From Pseudomonadota bacterium (GTDB lineage: Bacteria; Desulfobacterota; Desulfuromonadia; Geobacterales; Pseudopelobacteraceae), in the NCBI GenBank assembly GCA_019352135.1, contig JABBNX010000012.1:1-43156 (forward strand): a stretch of 43,156 nucleotides of DNA. Direction: 5' to 3'. A model generated the notes under the pieces. That model was given only the letters and a program-made list of their open reading frames with translations, searched no databases and had not been told where the DNA came from. A program made the translations under genes and the position numbers. Each line of letters begins with the position of its first letter. The stretch's first letter is position 1. This document shows, in pieces, positions 36,891-42,522 of this stretch.

Positions 36891-36968
<78 letters not shown>

Positions 36969-37146: not shown

Positions 37147-38388
37147 ATGCCAAAGCGTATTATGCCACTCACTGACCTCAAAGTAAAAAACGCCAAACCG
37201 AAGGAAAAAAATTACAAGCTGTCAGATGGCGCTGGATTGTATATGCTGATAACTCCTAGTGGTGGCAAGCTCTGGCGATTCGACTACAGTTTTGATGGGA
37301 AACGTAAAACCCTTTTCTTAAAATCCTACCCTGAAAAATCACTCTCTGATGTCCGTAAAGATCGAGAAGACGCTCGTTCTCTTCTCGCCAATGGCATTGA
37401 TCCTGGTGCCATCATAAAAGAGCAGAAATCTCAAGTACAGCTACAATCTGAACATGACGCGAATACATTTGAAAAGGTAGCGCGTGAATGGTTTTCCAAG
37501 AACGAGCCGGTGTGGAGTGATAGCCATATTAAAACCATAAAAAGCAGGCTTGAGAGGGACGTCTATCCGATTATTGGCAATAGGCCGATTGCAGAGATAA
37601 CACGTGGGGAAATTATTGCGCTTGTTCACCGCGTCGAGGCAAGGGGGGTGATTGAAACTGCTGACCGGATAAAAATATACTGTGGGCAGATTTTTCGTTA
37701 TGCGCTCAACCTGGAATTGATTCCGCACAATCCGGTCACTGATATGCGGGATGTTATTTCAAAGCGTATAGCAGGGCATCATGCGGCAATTACCGATCCG
37801 AAAAAACTTGCAGGGCTTATGAGGGCGATTGATGATTTTGACGGCTCTTTCGTTGTTACATGTGCCTTAAAAATTGCTCCGCTTGTATTTGTTCGGCCAG
37901 GTGAGCTTCGGCATATGGAATGGTCTGAAATTGACTTTGACACTGAGCAATGGAACATACCGGCTGAAAAAATGAAAATGAAAGTAAATCATCTTGTCCC
38001 GCTGAGTAAACAAGTGATTGCAGTCTTGAAAGAATTGCACCCGCTGACAGGATCAGGAAAATATGCTTTTCCGAACGGTCGGACTACAGATCGACCAATG
38101 AGCGAGGTAGCGTTACTTGCAGCTCTTAGGCGTATGGGGTATAGCAAGGAAGAAATGACACCACATGGTTTCAGGGCAACAGCAAGAACAATTCTTGATG
38201 AAGTTCTTCAAGTGCGGCCAGACTTCATAGAGCACCAGCTTGCACACGCAGTTAAAGACCCGAACGGCAGGGCATACAACAGGACAGCACACCTTGACGA
38301 GCGCAAAAAGATGATGCAGCGGTGGGCTGATTATCTCGACGGGTTGAAGGCCGTGGCTAAGGTTATACCATTAAGAAAAACGGTTTAA
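37147..38388 (+). CDS. P4-type tyrosine recombinase (integrase)
   Basis: Site-specific recombinase that would insert and excise the element at tRNA-Glu. The 413-residue protein begins with a DUF4102-type arm-binding domain (LTDLKVKNAKPKEKNYKLSD, DGAGLYMLI), then a core-binding SAM-like domain (about residues 105-200). The catalytic domain follows. Its conserved residues are Arg250 in RPGELRHMEW, HGFR (His340, Arg343), His363 in EHQLAH and the nucleophile Tyr377 in AYNRTAH, so it should be active. AGGGGAGAG precedes the ATG. The gene lies 178 bp from the tRNA end and converges on the AlpA-like gene with a 5-bp gap. Confidence 0.95.
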   Translation: MPKRIMPLTDLKVKNAKPKEKNYKLSDGAGLYMLITPSGGKLWRFDYSFDGKRKTLFLKSYPEKSLSDVRKDREDARSLLANGIDPGAIIKEQKSQVQLQSEHDANTFEKVAREWFSKNEPVWSDSHIKTIKSRLERDVYPIIGNRPIAEITRGEIIALVHRVEARGVIETADRIKIYCGQIFRYALNLELIPHNPVTDMRDVISKRIAGHHAAITDPKKLAGLMRAIDDFDGSFVVTCALKIAPLVFVRPGELRHMEWSEIDFDTEQWNIPAEKMKMKVNHLVPLSKQVIAVLKELHPLTGSGKYAFPNGRTTDRPMSEVALLAALRRMGYSKEEMTPHGFRATARTILDEVLQVRPDFIEHQLAHAVKDPNGRAYNRTAHLDERKKMMQRWADYLDGLKAVAKVIPLRKTV

Positions 38389-38393
38389 TCCAA

Positions 38394-38624
38394 TTATGCT
38401 TCTGATTTGTTAATGAGCTGACGAATGTCGAGAACATTCCAGCAGGTCGTACGCTCTCCTAATTTTATCGGTTTTGGAAAACGTCCAGACTTCACTCCAT
38501 CCCACCATGTCGATTTGCTCACAGGTATTATCGGAGGTATTCCTTTTTTCTTATCTCCCAGAATTTGTGACAACCTCACAAGACCTGTTTCAGGGAGTGC
38601 GTTGTATGTATTGAGTGTTTGCAT
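38394..38624 (-). CDS. AlpA-family DNA-binding regulator
   Basis: A 76-residue winged/helix-turn-helix protein of the AlpA type, which in P4-like elements controls integrase expression or acts as excisionase. The signature runs LVRLSQILGDKK, then VSKSTWWDGVKSGRFPKPIKLGERTTCW followed by the recognition-tail residues DIRQLI. A slightly long insert (KKKGIPPIIP) lies before the first helix pair. The ATG at 38624 has GGGGG five bases upstream; the longer frame reaching 38657 lies in the upstream gene. It follows the P-loop gene by 8 bp and is thus part of the replication operon. Confidence 0.88.
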   Translation of the reverse strand: MQTLNTYNALPETGLVRLSQILGDKKKGIPPIIPVSKSTWWDGVKSGRFPKPIKLGERTTCWNVLDIRQLINKSEA

Positions 38625-38632
38625 ATAGCCCC

Positions 38633-40225
38633 CTAAAACGGCAGATCGACGGGACATGACTCGTCATCATAGGAATGGAGTGCATCGATTCCGGCTATAT
38701 CCGCTACAATTGTTGTCCTGAAATTATCACCATGATCAGCCCTCCATTGCTCAAGATGCTCCTGAGCCAGACGTTCCATATCGTCCCGTGACAACCCGCC
38801 TGTTTTCTTCAATTCGTTCAGTCGTGCCAGGTAAACTTCTTTCTCTTCCGGGGTTGTAAAGGTAAGCCGTTTCACCCGTACCGGTGCAGACTCTCTACCA
38901 CTCTCTACCTCTTTCAAAACATGCTGATGTTGTTCAGCTTTATCAGGTAGAGAGTTGGTAGAGTGTGCCGACTCTCTTGCCGTATGTCCGTATTGTTTCA
39001 GGATCAAGGCATATTCTTCGGCGGTGATCTTGATTTCCGAGTAACCGTGAACAATCCGGTTATGGAAACTCATGCTCTTTAAGCGTTTGCCGATCCATTG
39101 CGGTGAAACATGCTTGTCTTCCGGTCTTCCCTGGTTGAATTTATTGCGAATATCTCCGGTCTTGATGCTCCATTCAACAAAGCGACCAAGGCCGTCTTCA
39201 TCGGTGATTTCCTTGATGATGGCAACCAGGCGACCTTCAAGAGAATCCTTTCTTGATTCATCCTTTTCACCGGCTATTGAGAGGATCGAATCTTCCAGGA
39301 TTGAAGCATCAACCGGCAGCAGACTGTTCATAAAGAACATCGGCTTGGTGATGTCCCACAGTCTCCCTGAAATGCCGTCGATTGGTTCCAGGTCGGGGAA
39401 TGTGGTTGTTAGATGTTTTGCTCTCCAGGCGGTCAGCCGTTCCTTTAACTCAAGGCCGAGTTCCGGGCGCGGGTTCTCATAGTTGCCGGGACGGTTCGGC
39501 ATGATGATCGGCAGACAACGGGTTTCAAGGATGTTGTGCAACTGTTCGTTGCTGGCGATGATCGTCGGGCCGTAGATATCGAAATAGACCGTATCATTGA
39601 AAGCGCCCTGATCCGGGTAGAGGACGCGGGAACATTTGGCCCCCTTTTCAGCCCGTAACAGCAGAATGTCATCACAGCCGCCCCGTTCCGCTTTTTTGGA
39701 GACATCAAGTAGATCGAGGAACAACGTGCCGTGGAGGTTCTGGCTATAGCGGAAGATGGTAGCTTCCCGTAGTTCAATCAGATGAATGCCCCTGAAAGCA
39801 ATATAGGTGACTGACTTGCCGGTTCTGCTCTTGCCCCGTTCCGGTACGGCGTAAAAGAGAAGATAGCCGCAATAGTCGATATCTGGATGATCGTGGAGAT
39901 AGGTCAGAAAGACGTAGTGAGCGACAATAGCCCATTGCACATCATCCAGACCGGAGAAGCGTTTCAGATAGGCCAGCAGATCATCATAGAGGGAATCATC
40001 ATCCTGGTTGAAGTAGCGCATGACTTCAACAGTGCGGGGAATGGTGAACTGGAAATGCTTTCTTTCCGGTATGGCAAAGCTTTCCGTTTGGGTGTTGTAC
40101 TCCTGGGAAAAGATAAGTTCGTCATCTGTGCGGATTGCATAGACGAGTTGCCCGTCATCATTCTGGCAGATATCCACCAGGCCGGGGAAGTAAGCGGAAA
40201 GTGCGGAGTCGCTGAAAGAGTCCAT
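38633..40225 (-). CDS. P-loop ATPase of the element, probable replicative helicase/primase-like protein
   Basis: A 530-residue protein. After ~115 residues without known motif comes a Walker A, VPERGKSRTGKSVT (about 128-140), a Walker B-like TLFLDLLDVS (about 177), and ASNEQLH as sensor 1. ETRCLPIIMPNRPGNYENP follows, with possible arginine finger. The pattern is like the ATPase half of mobile-element primase-helicases (DUF927/DUF3631-like), but a specific family was not confirmed. A winged-helix-like segment lies near 395-440 (WIGKRLKSMSFHNRIV), followed by a charged tail. Its ATG overlaps the stop of the small ORF by one base, and it is followed by the AlpA-like gene. It likely works with the Rep protein. 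Confidence 0.75.
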   Translation of the reverse strand: MDSFSDSALSAYFPGLVDICQNDDGQLVYAIRTDDELIFSQEYNTQTESFAIPERKHFQFTIPRTVEVMRYFNQDDDSLYDDLLAYLKRFSGLDDVQWAIVAHYVFLTYLHDHPDIDYCGYLLFYAVPERGKSRTGKSVTYIAFRGIHLIELREATIFRYSQNLHGTLFLDLLDVSKKAERGGCDDILLLRAEKGAKCSRVLYPDQGAFNDTVYFDIYGPTIIASNEQLHNILETRCLPIIMPNRPGNYENPRPELGLELKERLTAWRAKHLTTTFPDLEPIDGISGRLWDITKPMFFMNSLLPVDASILEDSILSIAGEKDESRKDSLEGRLVAIIKEITDEDGLGRFVEWSIKTGDIRNKFNQGRPEDKHVSPQWIGKRLKSMSFHNRIVHGYSEIKITAEEYALILKQYGHTARESAHSTNSLPDKAEQHQHVLKEVESGRESAPVRVKRLTFTTPEEKEVYLARLNELKKTGGLSRDDMERLAQEHLEQWRADHGDNFRTTIVADIAGIDALHSYDDESCPVDLPF

Positions 40226-40413
40226 TAGCGGCCACCTCCATCCGACAACGTGCCGCGTTGAATCGCTTTCTTGATGCAGGCTGTTTCAAAGTCGGCGGCG
40301 TTATTGCGTTTGGTCAGGCGGCTTTGTAGCTCTTGCAAGGCGTCAAGGCGGTTGGTTATCCCCAGGAAGGCGGCAAAGGAGGAGAGACAGCCATCTATAT
40401 GGGAAAGGTGCAT
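40225..40413 (-). CDS. Small 62-residue protein between rep and the ATPase gene
   Basis: MHLSHIDGCLSSFAAFLGI is followed by a helical, charged segment (RLDALQELQSRLTKRNNAAD) and a Gly-rich end, GGGR. No family was recognised. The start overlaps the end of rep by 19 bp, and the stop shares a base with the ATPase start (TAATG). This end-to-end coupling on both sides is the main evidence that it is translated. A small accessory replication or copy-control protein is plausible but unproven. Confidence 0.55.
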   Translation of the reverse strand: MHLSHIDGCLSSFAAFLGITNRLDALQELQSRLTKRNNAADFETACIKKAIQRGTLSDGGGR

Positions 40414-41495
40414 TCCGGTGAGGCGGCGCCGGAAGTGCCATAGTCACGCTGTACCTCGCTGTCAGTACCAGGGACATGATTCTTGAAACATTCCTGGACG
40501 GCAGACCAGAAGGGATGAATGGTTTTACGTTCGGCTTTGTCGTTATCAGGAAGGCGAAGAGAAAACCATTTTGACGTGAGATAGCCCCATAGTCCGGCCT
40601 GTTTTTCTTTCAGATCGTCAAGGGAGTTGATGCCGAACTGTTTAAGGGCAGGGCGGCGCACCTGGAATTCTATCCGCCAGATATCATCGGTTGATTCACG
40701 TTTCCAGAGATCGAGGAACCAGAGCTTGACACCACCCTGTTTGACTTCGATTCCCTTATTGTAAATTCGTGCTTGAATTGGAGACTTGGCATCGGCGGCG
40801 TAATAGGTTTGCAGCTCATTCTTGTCGAGGAAGAGTTTGCCTTTATCATTGCGGGTGACTTTGTGGGACAGAATGAATTCGTGAGAGAGGCCACCGGGAA
40901 CCAGGAAGTCGGCGCAGAGATCGAGACGGCTGACCTGGACAAGCTGAATCGTACCGCCACCGATTGCTTTCAGGTCAAGGGCAATCCATGACATTGCTGT
41001 TTCAATGCCGTTCTGCCACAGAATCTTGGCACTGATGGAAAGATAGACGTTGGGGGATGTTCCGGGCCGGGCAGCTTTACCGATAAAAAGGTTGTAGGCG
41101 TCGAACTGGAGATGAAAGCGGTAGTTCTCACCCTTGCCACCCGGCTTGAAGATACAGTTTCCACCGGAGGGCATGGCGATAAGCAGACCACCATTTTTAC
41201 GAGCTTGTAGTTTCTTTTTGTCGAGGGAATGAAGGCGACGTTTCCAATCTGATCCCCATACGACATATAAACCGAGATCAAGGGAATCAATGCCGCAGAG
41301 GAGAAACTGGAACTCTTCAACGAGTGGGGTTGAAGCAGGATGTGTTACAGGTACCATCCTGCTGGAAAAAGATTCCGCCGCCCCGGCAGGGCTCCCGGCA
41401 GAGCCAGTAAGCTCTGCCGGGGCGGCGGGCACATTTGATGATGTGGATTCGGGGGAAGTACTGCTGACTGACAATTCGTTCTGATTCGGTTTCAT
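40395..41495 (-). CDS. Rep_trans-like replication initiation protein
   Basis: Probable rolling-circle initiator. The 366-residue protein has an unusual Ser/Ala/Pro-rich head (about residues 8-45, no fold expected). A domain with QVSRLDLCADF (about 187-197) follows. QARIYNKGIEVKQ comes next, where Tyr245 is the candidate nicking tyrosine, then WRIEFQVRRPALKQFGI with the conserved acidic residue. This order matches the replication-initiation-factor (pT181 RepC/RstA-like) family by eye. AAGGAG lies five bases before the ATG at 41495 and is part of a hairpin. An internal ATG at residue 47 would skip the head. Confidence 0.75.
   Translation of the reverse strand: MKPNQNELSVSSTSPESTSSNVPAAPAELTGSAGSPAGAAESFSSRMVPVTHPASTPLVEEFQFLLCGIDSLDLGLYVVWGSDWKRRLHSLDKKKLQARKNGGLLIAMPSGGNCIFKPGGKGENYRFHLQFDAYNLFIGKAARPGTSPNVYLSISAKILWQNGIETAMSWIALDLKAIGGGTIQLVQVSRLDLCADFLVPGGLSHEFILSHKVTRNDKGKLFLDKNELQTYYAADAKSPIQARIYNKGIEVKQGGVKLWFLDLWKRESTDDIWRIEFQVRRPALKQFGINSLDDLKEKQAGLWGYLTSKWFSLRLPDNDKAERKTIHPFWSAVQECFKNHVPGTDSEVQRDYGTSGAASPECTFPI
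41375..41428. repeat. Nested, competing GC-rich inverted repeats inside rep (candidate origin)
   Basis: Outer pair: 15-bp perfect arms 41375-41389 and 41414-41428. Inner pair: 11-bp perfect arms 41394-41404 and 41411-41421 around a CAGTAA loop. Both use 41414-41421, so only one can form at a time. They encode the disordered residues ~23-41 of Rep. Confidence 0.9.
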
Positions 41496-41500
41496 GGAGG

Positions 41501-41525
41501 CTCCTTAGGTTTTAGTTGCCTAAGG
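41501..41525 (-). promoter_or_regulatory. Hairpin covering the rep Shine-Dalgarno
   Basis: CCTTAGG (41525-41519 on the minus strand) and CCTAAGG (41509-41503) pair perfectly around a nine-base loop. The second arm contains most of the AAGGAG ribosome binding site of rep. Confidence 0.75.
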
Positions 41526-41562
41526 ATTCCACTAAATCCGGGCGGTTGCCCGGACAGCAAAA

Positions 41563-42522
41563 CTACTTTTTTGTGTCCGGTTGAAAGACCTTCAGCCATT
41601 CCTCACGATAACGGAAGATTGCCCTGGCAAAGCTGTCTTGATTTATAGGCAGATCAGGATCAGTAAGAGTTCCATCAAAATCTTGAGCCACAGCATCGAA
41701 AAGCTTGTGAATCTCTGCGGCTGAAAGAGTTTTTTTTGTCAGTGGTTTGAGAACCTTTGCTAACGCCGATATAAGCCCTCCAATCGCATATTTCATCTGT
41801 TGCGGGGTAACATTCAGTTGATGATCGTTGTGAGTGGCTGTCAAGAGGTTTTCATATATGGTCGTTTTTCGATTGAGGCGAAGCCCCTGTAGCTTTTTGC
41901 CGATTGATGGATCATGGAGCATGAGTGGGTCAAGAGATAACAACTTTTCAAGTGCGTCAACTTTCCCCTGGCGTGCTCTGCGATAAAGGCGGGTAGGCAA
42001 TGTCCTGTAGATCAACCAGCAGGGGACTGTTACAAGGATAAAGAAACTACTTTCAAGGCTGTTATCAATAAACAAAGACAGCAGTTGTTCTCTTTGTGAG
42101 GGGTCAGCAGGCAGCGGTGAAAGATCGTTTTTGATCTCCTGGAGTGATTCGGTCATCATATTTTCCATTACAGGTTTTATCTGTTCAATCTCTTCTGGAG
42201 TTGACATCTGTAATTCAGCTTGATTGTATCTAGCAAGTTCTCCTACTCCATCAAGTACCTTTTCTCCAAATTCAATTGACTCTGGCCCGAAACTGGAAAA
42301 ATCAGCGAAGATTTTACGAAGGAAAATTAGTGGTTTTTTGTGTGAACGATACATTGCAAACCACGCTGGAAGGTATGGCAAGGGGAATTGGTGTTTCAAT
42401 ATGCGGCGTTGTTTTGTGTATTGAAATGCTTCGTGAATATCTCGTGCTGTTATTGCAGCTTTGGGTGCAAGAAGGGCAATAAGGAACGGTTTACCTATGA
42501 TCCATTTATTTATTTTCTGCAT
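41563..42522 (-). CDS. Unrecognised 319-residue protein of the element
   Basis: No family recognised. The N-terminal part is basic and helical (MQKINKWIIGKPFLIALLA, later KQRRILKHQFPLPYLPAWF). Around residue 180-200 a hydrophobic stretch, SSFFILVTVPCWLIYRTLP, could cross or attach to a membrane. After it come basic residues (RLYRRARQGK) and a repeat-like LEKLLSLDPLMLHDPSIGKK. The C-terminal ~60 residues are mixed and end in QPDTKK. AGGAG lies five bases before the ATG at 42522. The longer frame to 42591 lacks a ribosome binding site. It is transcribed towards rep, 67 bp away, and is AT-richer than the core genes. It could be an accessory (for example host-interference) gene; this is speculation. 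Confidence 0.7.
   Translation of the reverse strand: MQKINKWIIGKPFLIALLAPKAAITARDIHEAFQYTKQRRILKHQFPLPYLPAWFAMYRSHKKPLIFLRKIFADFSSFGPESIEFGEKVLDGVGELARYNQAELQMSTPEEIEQIKPVMENMMTESLQEIKNDLSPLPADPSQREQLLSLFIDNSLESSFFILVTVPCWLIYRTLPTRLYRRARQGKVDALEKLLSLDPLMLHDPSIGKKLQGLRLNRKTTIYENLLTATHNDHQLNVTPQQMKYAIGGLISALAKVLKPLTKKTLSAAEIHKLFDAVAQDFDGTLTDPDLPINQDSFARAIFRYREEWLKVFQPDTKK

Follow-up and report, generated by a model that had tools for sequence, protein, structure and literature searches.

A probable rolling-circle origin made of two hairpins at the start of rep in an integrative element of a Geobacter-like genome

Introduction

Near the start of a rep gene in the window, as I call the whole 43,156-nucleotide stretch of DNA analysed here, a GC-rich hairpin (H1) is laid over codons for a Ser/Ala/Pro/Gly peptide. 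Is this structure part of an origin of replication, as an earlier note made from the letters alone had suggested, and if so, where is the DNA cut? In pT181 and pC221 the origin lies inside the initiator gene (repC and repD), the nick falls in the loop of a hairpin, ICRII, and the peptide encoded there is dispensable (passages of PMC5703833 and PMC4797284); in pC221 a Rep-binding repeat, ICRIII, is centred 23 bp downstream of the nick (PMC4797284, passage on the origin). For MOBT/Rep_trans proteins the nic site is given as CT'AA, located in a GC-rich hairpin loop; in ICESt3 a 7-bp repeat flanks a 12-bp spacer, and rolling-circle replication after excision has been shown for Tn916 and ICEBs1 (sections of PMC9371924). 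Most rolling-circle plasmids carry their single-strand origin (sso) upstream of the double-strand origin (dso), and a pBAA1 sso with altered sequence and conserved structure is functional (sections of PMC4595007).

Results

The element and its initiator

The genes around rep have the anatomy of an integrative element, with a tRNA-Glu, a tyrosine integrase, an AlpA-like gene, P0002 and P0004 (Table 1). The host genome is Geobacter-like and the element is tRNA-linked; no other repeat of at least 15 nt of the tRNA-Glu 3' end occurs within the window. In a Pfam scan that covered five genes around rep, and in NCBIfam, P0002 and P0004 had no match. P0002 gave no useful match in the PDB (vinculin at E 0.27 or worse), and relatives of P0004 adjoin rep in at least 10 other loci. 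Rfam returned one tRNA for the window and four matches under their cut-offs, none of them for H1, and on eight loci tRNAs alone reached gathering scores. Hairpins similar to those at 41502-41526 and 41550-41580 are found in several relatives, and it is possible that the two control the expression of rep.

Table 1. Features of the element, in window coordinates
Feature	Position	Strand	Remark
tRNA-Glu(TTC)	36891..36968	+	adjoins integrase; presumed attachment site
Tyrosine integrase of the element	37147..38388	+	PF22022, PF13356, PF00589
AlpA-like excisionase/regulator	38394..38657	-	PF05930, 24.5 bits (cut-off 21)
P0002, 530 aa, downstream of rep	38633..40225	-	P-loop-like GKSRTGKS (by eye); possible helicase
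rep, Rep_trans-type initiator, divergent, 366 aa	40395..41495	-	
Frozen Pro codon CCA	41325..41327	-	19-21 nt downstream of predicted nick
H2, probable nic hairpin (double-strand origin)	41334..41363	-	codons ~45-54 of rep
Predicted scissile step CTGT'AACA in H2 loop	41346..41347	-	between T41347 and A41346
H1, two-tier GC-rich hairpin, codons 23-41 of rep	41375..41428	-	probably a single-strand (lagging-strand) origin, or else another accessory hairpin of the origin
Hairpin TCCTTAGG..CCTAAGGA over likely rep ribosome-binding site	41502..41526	-	
Inverted repeat CCGGACA..TGTCCGG across stop codon of upstream gene	41550..41580	-	
P0004, 319 aa, function-unassigned gene upstream of rep	41563..42522	-	

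The earlier note had taken Rep for an initiator of the pT181 kind. The assignment to Rep_trans is supported by the relatives of the protein and a profile comparison rather than by a Pfam match of its own: the window Rep matches no family at E≤0.01 or at E≤0.1. Among 14 Rep sequences, 10 match PF02486 (Rep_trans) at E≤0.1, the best at 4.1e-5, and six match Phage_CRI. Compared with four Rep_trans proteins, three of which had been scanned against Pfam, the Rep profile gave Prob 85.5 and E 5.7e-6. R190, D192, Y245, K247, E250, R274 and E276 are invariant in the alignment of the 14 sequences; these residues match the catalytic motifs RxD, YxKxxE and W/LxRxE, catalytic Tyr included, that are given for Rep_trans in a passage of PMC5714925. 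The sole PDB match up to E 1 was the Rep 4cij, at E 0.18, from Geobacillus (organism as named in a passage of PMC6499999), and an AlphaFold2 model of the Rep of the relative L008 was poor (pLDDT 46.7, pTM 0.40), Foldseek finding no match for it at E≤0.001. Relatives are about 55 aa longer than the window rep frame; since the matching C-terminal stretch lies at 40228-40416 in another frame, the window copy may be broken or misassembled.

Relatives of rep were found at 5 loci in the public genome set, in 30 of 141 genomes of the order and in 17 of 395 sampled genomes of the phylum, the last two counts including the window's own genome; some of the matches are short or distant. The named hosts in the public set are Geobacter, Geobacteraceae, Desulfuromonadaceae and unplaced Deltaproteobacteria metagenome-assembled genomes; no relative in a viral contig was confirmed. 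The window's genome has one clear Rep_trans protein elsewhere (L157, G000:C149:4332-4874, E 3.4e-37), with no nic-like hairpin of stem 6 or more in the 3.5 kb around it.

H1 is a strong two-tier hairpin

The perfect inverted repeats of 15 and 11 bp reported in the earlier note at codons ~23-41 of rep are present, and share eight bases as described. The arms of H1 (41375-41393 and 41410-41428) are 95% complementary; its outer part is the perfect 15-bp stem (41375-41389 with 41414-41428), which the 11-bp repeat (41394-41404 with 41411-41421, 6 nt apart) overlaps at 41414-41421. Folded as RNA, the 54-nt minus strand has an energy of -50.4 kcal/mol (z -7.1; none of 200 dinucleotide shuffles folds as well), and an 81-nt segment of this strand gives z -5.8 as RNA and -5.0 as DNA. 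H1 exists and is far beyond chance. Its minimum-energy form is a single two-tier hairpin, in which the 15-bp outer stem is topped by a small inner stem with a TCT loop. The 11-bp hairpin alone reaches -25.2 against -50.4 for this form, and the pair that had been called mutually exclusive consists indeed of two overlapping helices, but these are unequal alternatives. On the plus strand, the 11-bp helix can also be drawn as an 8-bp stem with a 12-nt loop, AGCCAGTAAGCT.

The window holds five perfect stems of at least 12 bp within a 75-nt span. Of these, only H1 falls within a long ORF taken as a gene; the other four are intergenic, two of them overlapping antisense or short ORFs of the mechanical list. 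Two readings of H1 were rejected: a terminator, as L007 and, by eye, most rows of the recoding test described below lack the T-run that follows H1 in the window; and a dispersed repeat of the RPE or REP kind, H1 DNA being unique in its own genome and showing no order-wide dispersal.

The fold of H1 is kept while its sequence is replaced

H1 recurs 5' of a second hairpin, H2, in relatives where its sequence is different and its length ranges from 32 to 64 nt. Between the window and L008 the Rep proteins are 93% alike, the rep cores 89.9% and H2 identical; H1 is 63% alike and the 75 nt before it 73%, so that the synonymous conservation expected over codons 23-41 was not seen: what is kept is the fold, not the sequence. 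The cores of L016 and L017 are 86.8% alike and their H1 44.6%; for the window and L044 the values are 61% and 81.5%. The two-state mRNA switch suggested in the earlier note did not survive this comparison as a general feature, L008 having no second helix of at least 8 bp and alternatives occurring, among the rows inspected, only in L007 (11 bp), whose H1 belongs to the same family as that of the window, and in L027 (10 bp).

The demand of the peptide was separated from that of the fold by synonymous recoding, with a fixed 78-nt segment, in 25 of 31 rows (out: L031, L083, L084, L004, L005 and L030). H1 was more stable than recodings drawn from codon usage, 15 or fewer of 300 being as stable, in 22 of these 25 in-frame rows (mean z -3.4), and it passed a codon permutation null in 16 (mean z -2.7). 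L014, part of whose H1 is lost from the segment, L017 and L020 fail both tests; with L018, L019, L021, L023, L026 and L029, nine rows in all fail the permutation. A hairpin upstream of H2 is present in all 25, weak in L021 and L023 (-11.0 and -13.1). In 26 of 28 loci (31 rows without L031, L083 and L084), the best hairpin in the 160 nt upstream of H2 is stronger than its downstream counterpart, with medians of -19.8 and -6.35, a count in which the head, by eye richer in Ala/Gly/Pro codons than the core, favours upstream hairpins by itself. In the two exceptions, L004 and L005, and in L030, H1 is part of the leader DNA and falls outside the 160-nt range, its distance from H2 being 131, 132 and 132 nt, respectively. 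In most relatives it is the fold of H1 and not its sequence that is maintained, and more strictly than the peptide requires. The recoding tests and the leader copies bear out the proposal that structure rather than peptide is selected here, and the Ser/Ala/Pro/Gly peptide of the head, itself correctly described in the earlier note, is variable across relatives. Between H1 and rep, the leaders of L004, L005 and L030 have in common, by eye, repeats like GTAGCnAGCCA..GnAGCAAGCCATyGGCAAT, which matched no Rfam family at gathering scores.

H2 is the candidate nick hairpin

H2 lies 11 nt 3' of H1 on the coding strand. It has a 9-bp stem, 5 of whose 9 pairs are G-C in the window, and a 12-nt loop GTACCTGTAACA (41343-41354), and is written AGCAGGATG GTACCTGTAACA CATCCTGCT. 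No other hairpin of the window, on either strand, combines a perfect stem of at least 7 bp, a loop of 10-14 nt and a TAACA-like loop end. Its pattern aligns without gaps in 30 of 31 rows, the junction row L031 being out of these counts, with the innermost pair failing in two; in the 8-bp stem, 99.2% of stem cells are paired. Both partners have changed in six of the eight pairs (23 cells), a level reached by none of 500 shuffles, and sliding the partners yields at most 1 doubly changed pair. The loop is CTGTAACA in 26 of the 30 rows, the window included, and CTGTTACA, CTATAACA, TTGTAACA and CTCTAACA in L007, L027, L021 and L023, respectively. Codon choice is rigid as well: in 26 of 31 rows (out: L031, L083, L084 and the truncated L028 and L075), no other of the 87 conserved columns is as frozen as the loop codons Thr ACA (26/26) and Val GTA (23/24) and the downstream Pro CCA (26/26), and the mean top-codon share in the 48 columns with a degeneracy of 4 or more is 0.54.

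An exact search of the 141 genomes with the right half of H2, CTGTAACACGCCATGC, found 18 sites in 16 genomes, and a reversed control found none. Sixteen of the sites fall at the beginning of a rep relative, whether full or broken; of the others, L083 has a short rep remnant and L084 has no rep. H2 is very likely the nic hairpin. The cut probably falls at CTGT'AACA in its loop, as I infer from the conservation of that loop, from the published nick at CT'AA and from a natural junction in L039. The window loop reads GT'AA, and therefore departs from the strict CT'AA motif; CTAA stands in the hairpin loop of L023, the distant L054 and L110 only. Just 3' of the predicted nick there is no perfect repeat of at least 8 bp in the window or the relatives' rows inspected, and folding downstream is weak, as the median given above indicates. 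An HTH_17/AlpA-like protein in L088 (G127:C29:11257-11580) likewise has H2, in frame and with its peptide MASSVTRHALNP, in its N-terminal part; the 30 genomes with a rep match do not include G127.

The junction is found in genome G116, where the first codons of the integrase beside a tRNA-Sec run into rep at ...GGGCTGTAACACGCC. CTGTA is common to both sides and contains the predicted nick. None of 13 integrase relatives compared runs into rep at that point, and the sister rep L040 has the whole of H2. This single case could reflect termination of a rolling circle at a nick-like sequence within int, or plain microhomology.

Nic-like hairpins in distant reps and in rep-less units

The distant reps L052, L053 and L064 have a 10-bp stem whose 12-nt loop, AAATGACTATCA, holds the apparent rep start codon, and L054 has a 7-bp stem with a 12-nt loop, AAATGACTAACA, again with the apparent start codon inside (by eye). 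In L097 and L101 a second Rep_trans type, which matches PF02486 at E 4e-40 to 6e-59 (three proteins scanned), bears a CCCCCG...AGTAACACGGGGG hairpin within the first codons. The nic hairpin of L110, GCCCCCC..CTAATA..GGGGGGC, lies further inside the gene, and upstream of it this different Rep_trans also has a hairpin of the H1 kind. With one mismatch allowed, the CCCCCG hairpin pattern has 14 sites in 9 of the 141 genomes and none in a reversed control. Seven loci with a nic-like hairpin, four distant relatives of the window Rep and three of the second type (L052, L053, L054, L064, L097, L101 and L104), have no strong hairpin within 160 nt upstream; H1 is therefore not essential to the class.

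A nic-like hairpin, CCCCCG...GTAACACGGGGG, also occurs where rep is absent, in L152 (G042:C6), L153 (G124:C1), L154 (G031:C1) and L155 (G027:C22). Several such hairpins are upstream of an AlpA-like gene (L096 matches HTH_17 and AlpA; the others by eye), and copies recur about 1.6-1.7 kb apart, two in G042 and three in G124. In L095/L154 an H1-like hairpin lies upstream of the nic-like hairpin and the AlpA-like gene (by eye). These units may possibly be satellites of Rep-bearing elements.

Discussion

The reading I favour, with a probability of roughly 0.6, is that H1 and H2 form one rolling-circle origin within rep, nicked in H2, with H1 as an accessory. That the origin lies inside rep, as the earlier note proposed by analogy with pT181 (passages of PMC5703833), is very probable. 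After excision, Rep would cut the coding strand in the H2 loop, at about CTGT'AACA, and would become joined to the 5' end; leading-strand synthesis would then pass through rep and go round the circle. Because it is just 5' of the nick, H1 would be the last to become single-stranded. It would then fold, and its shape, not its sequence, would serve as sso, from which a host enzyme would prime the second strand. If H2 is the dso, H1 is a folded strand 5' of it, the arrangement expected of an sso; and since its shape is kept, its sequence replaced, its place 5' of the nick and its company different Reps, an sso fits best among the roles considered. Taken alone, I hold this role for H1 to be somewhat short of an even chance. 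In ICEBs1 the sso is downstream of oriT, and an upstream sso is argued to be harmful to an ICE (section of PMC4595007), which counts against H1 as sso. H1 is like sso of the ssoA and pBAA1 types in being a folded strand 5' of the dso, as in most plasmids, and structure can outweigh sequence in these (passages of PMC5703833 and PMC4595007). It differs in being one hairpin, usually in coding sequence, compared with about 160 nt for ssoA (PMC5703833, same passages) and with the intergenic sso1 of ICEBs1, which has three stem-loops (PMC4595007, same section); that it is much shorter than ssoA also counts against the role.

Of the other roles that H1 might play, an RNA control element of rep comes first, H2 still being the nick hairpin: H1 would be an mRNA structure that slows translation, or an antisense RNA would act on it to set the copy number. 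I regard this as unlikely. Antisense control is known in pT181 and is a precedent for it; the separate hairpin over the likely ribosome-binding site of rep would suit RNA control, and quick change of sequence under a kept fold would suit incompatibility specificity. H1 is also more stable on the coding strand than on the complement in 21 of 27 rows with RNA parameters and 19 of 27 with DNA parameters (27 of 30 rows; out: L021, L023, L084), and has 41 G-T pairs there against 19, but this bias is weak evidence because H1 was located by folding the coding strand. Spacing argues the other way, as H1 holds its distance to H2 (sd 6 nt) and not to the start codon (sd 17 nt; n=20 in-frame rows, ten of 30 being left out: the leader rows L004, L005 and L030, the solo rows L083 and L084, L014, L021, L023, L028, and L029, whose start codon is absent). 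Depending on the element, H1 sits in the leader or within the ORF, and in L095/L154 it has no rep to control. It belongs to no Rfam family, and it is alike in the window, L007 and L044, which are of one genus and have different reps, the reverse of incompatibility diversity.

Slightly below this stands a binding role, likewise improbable, in which H1 would be the bind part of the origin, read by Rep as a cruciform or through the inner CCGGCTCTGCCGG, and would help to extrude H2 for cutting. The nearly fixed gap between the two hairpins and the inner CTCTG loop found in many H1 rows speak for it, as does the adjoining of bind and nick sites in most rolling-circle plasmids (passages of PMC5703833). 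The near-identical Reps of the window and L008 have different H1 stems, however, and leader-type H1 is far from H2. Moreover, the known Rep_trans/MOBT bind sites are downstream of the nick (passages of PMC9371924 and PMC4797284), the side on which the frozen CCA codon lies, at +19.

That H1 is a mobile palindromic insert, tolerated in the disordered head and with no part in an origin, is disfavoured and very improbable. Rickettsial palindromic elements are a precedent for palindromic inserts in proteins; H1 is in frame, codes for a low-complexity peptide in a head that varies between relatives, and has been exchanged between elements. A search of the 141 genomes with H1 at E≤0.001 nevertheless returned nine rows, of which eight (self included) are in rep or Rep_trans genes and the ninth is a 25-nt match in another ORF; single copy in its genome, with a hairpin upstream of H2 in every in-frame row and a fold beyond codon usage in most, H1 does not behave as such an insert. 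A nick in the H1 loop, with H1 as the whole double-strand origin, is the least credible reading and was rejected because the loop is not conserved: H1 is a cruciform-forming hairpin inside rep as in pT181, its plus-strand form with loop AGCCAGTAAGCT has nic geometry and CAGTAA is similar to the AGTAACA found in a related type of hairpin, but of 30 rows only those of the window and L007 have this loop, which does not end in TAACA, the frozen nic-like loop is that of H2, the natural int::rep junction falls at H2, and the seven nic-like loci above do without H1. On present evidence H1 is not the nick site.

The origin composed of H2 and H1 would resemble that of pT181 and pC221 in lying in the initiator gene and in its predicted nick within a hairpin loop. 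It differs in that H1 is 5' of the nick hairpin, whereas ICRIII is 3'; no ICRIII-like repeat is present here, only the frozen CCA at +19; and the carrier is an integrative element in Desulfobacterota rather than a Firmicutes plasmid. With the MOBT nic of ICESt3, H2 shares a short stem and a 12-nt spacer, and with ICESt3, Tn916 and ICEBs1 the element shares a Rep_trans-type relaxase. The H2 stem is less GC-rich than ICE nic stems, its loop core is GT'AA in place of CT'AA, and it is inside rep where the MOBT oriT/nic is intergenic.

A wider hypothesis, which I offer as tentative and rather doubtful, is that many integrative elements of Geobacter-like and related bacteria have a portable two-part origin. 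Rep would recognise the nick hairpin and the host, through shape alone, the lagging-strand hairpin; the two would be overprinted on the start of rep and exchanged between at least two Rep_trans lineages. The nick hairpin would occur also in rep-less tandem AlpA units, which would be satellites dependent on a Rep supplied in trans. Searches of an open-access collection listed no title on these elements; as far as that collection shows, what is new is this group of elements, the exchange between Rep types and the overprinting of the H1-H2 pair on coding sequence. An origin inside rep is known from pT181, and the principle is therefore not new.

The locus provides a family of Desulfobacterota integrative elements, whose genes next to rep here mostly match no family, with a rolling-circle origin that can be tested. 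It is also a protein-coding stretch shaped by DNA structure in two ways, H2 covarying around a frozen loop and H1 turning over in sequence while its fold stays. If H1 is an sso read by shape, its diverse natural set would amount to a ready-made mutagenesis of what an sso needs.
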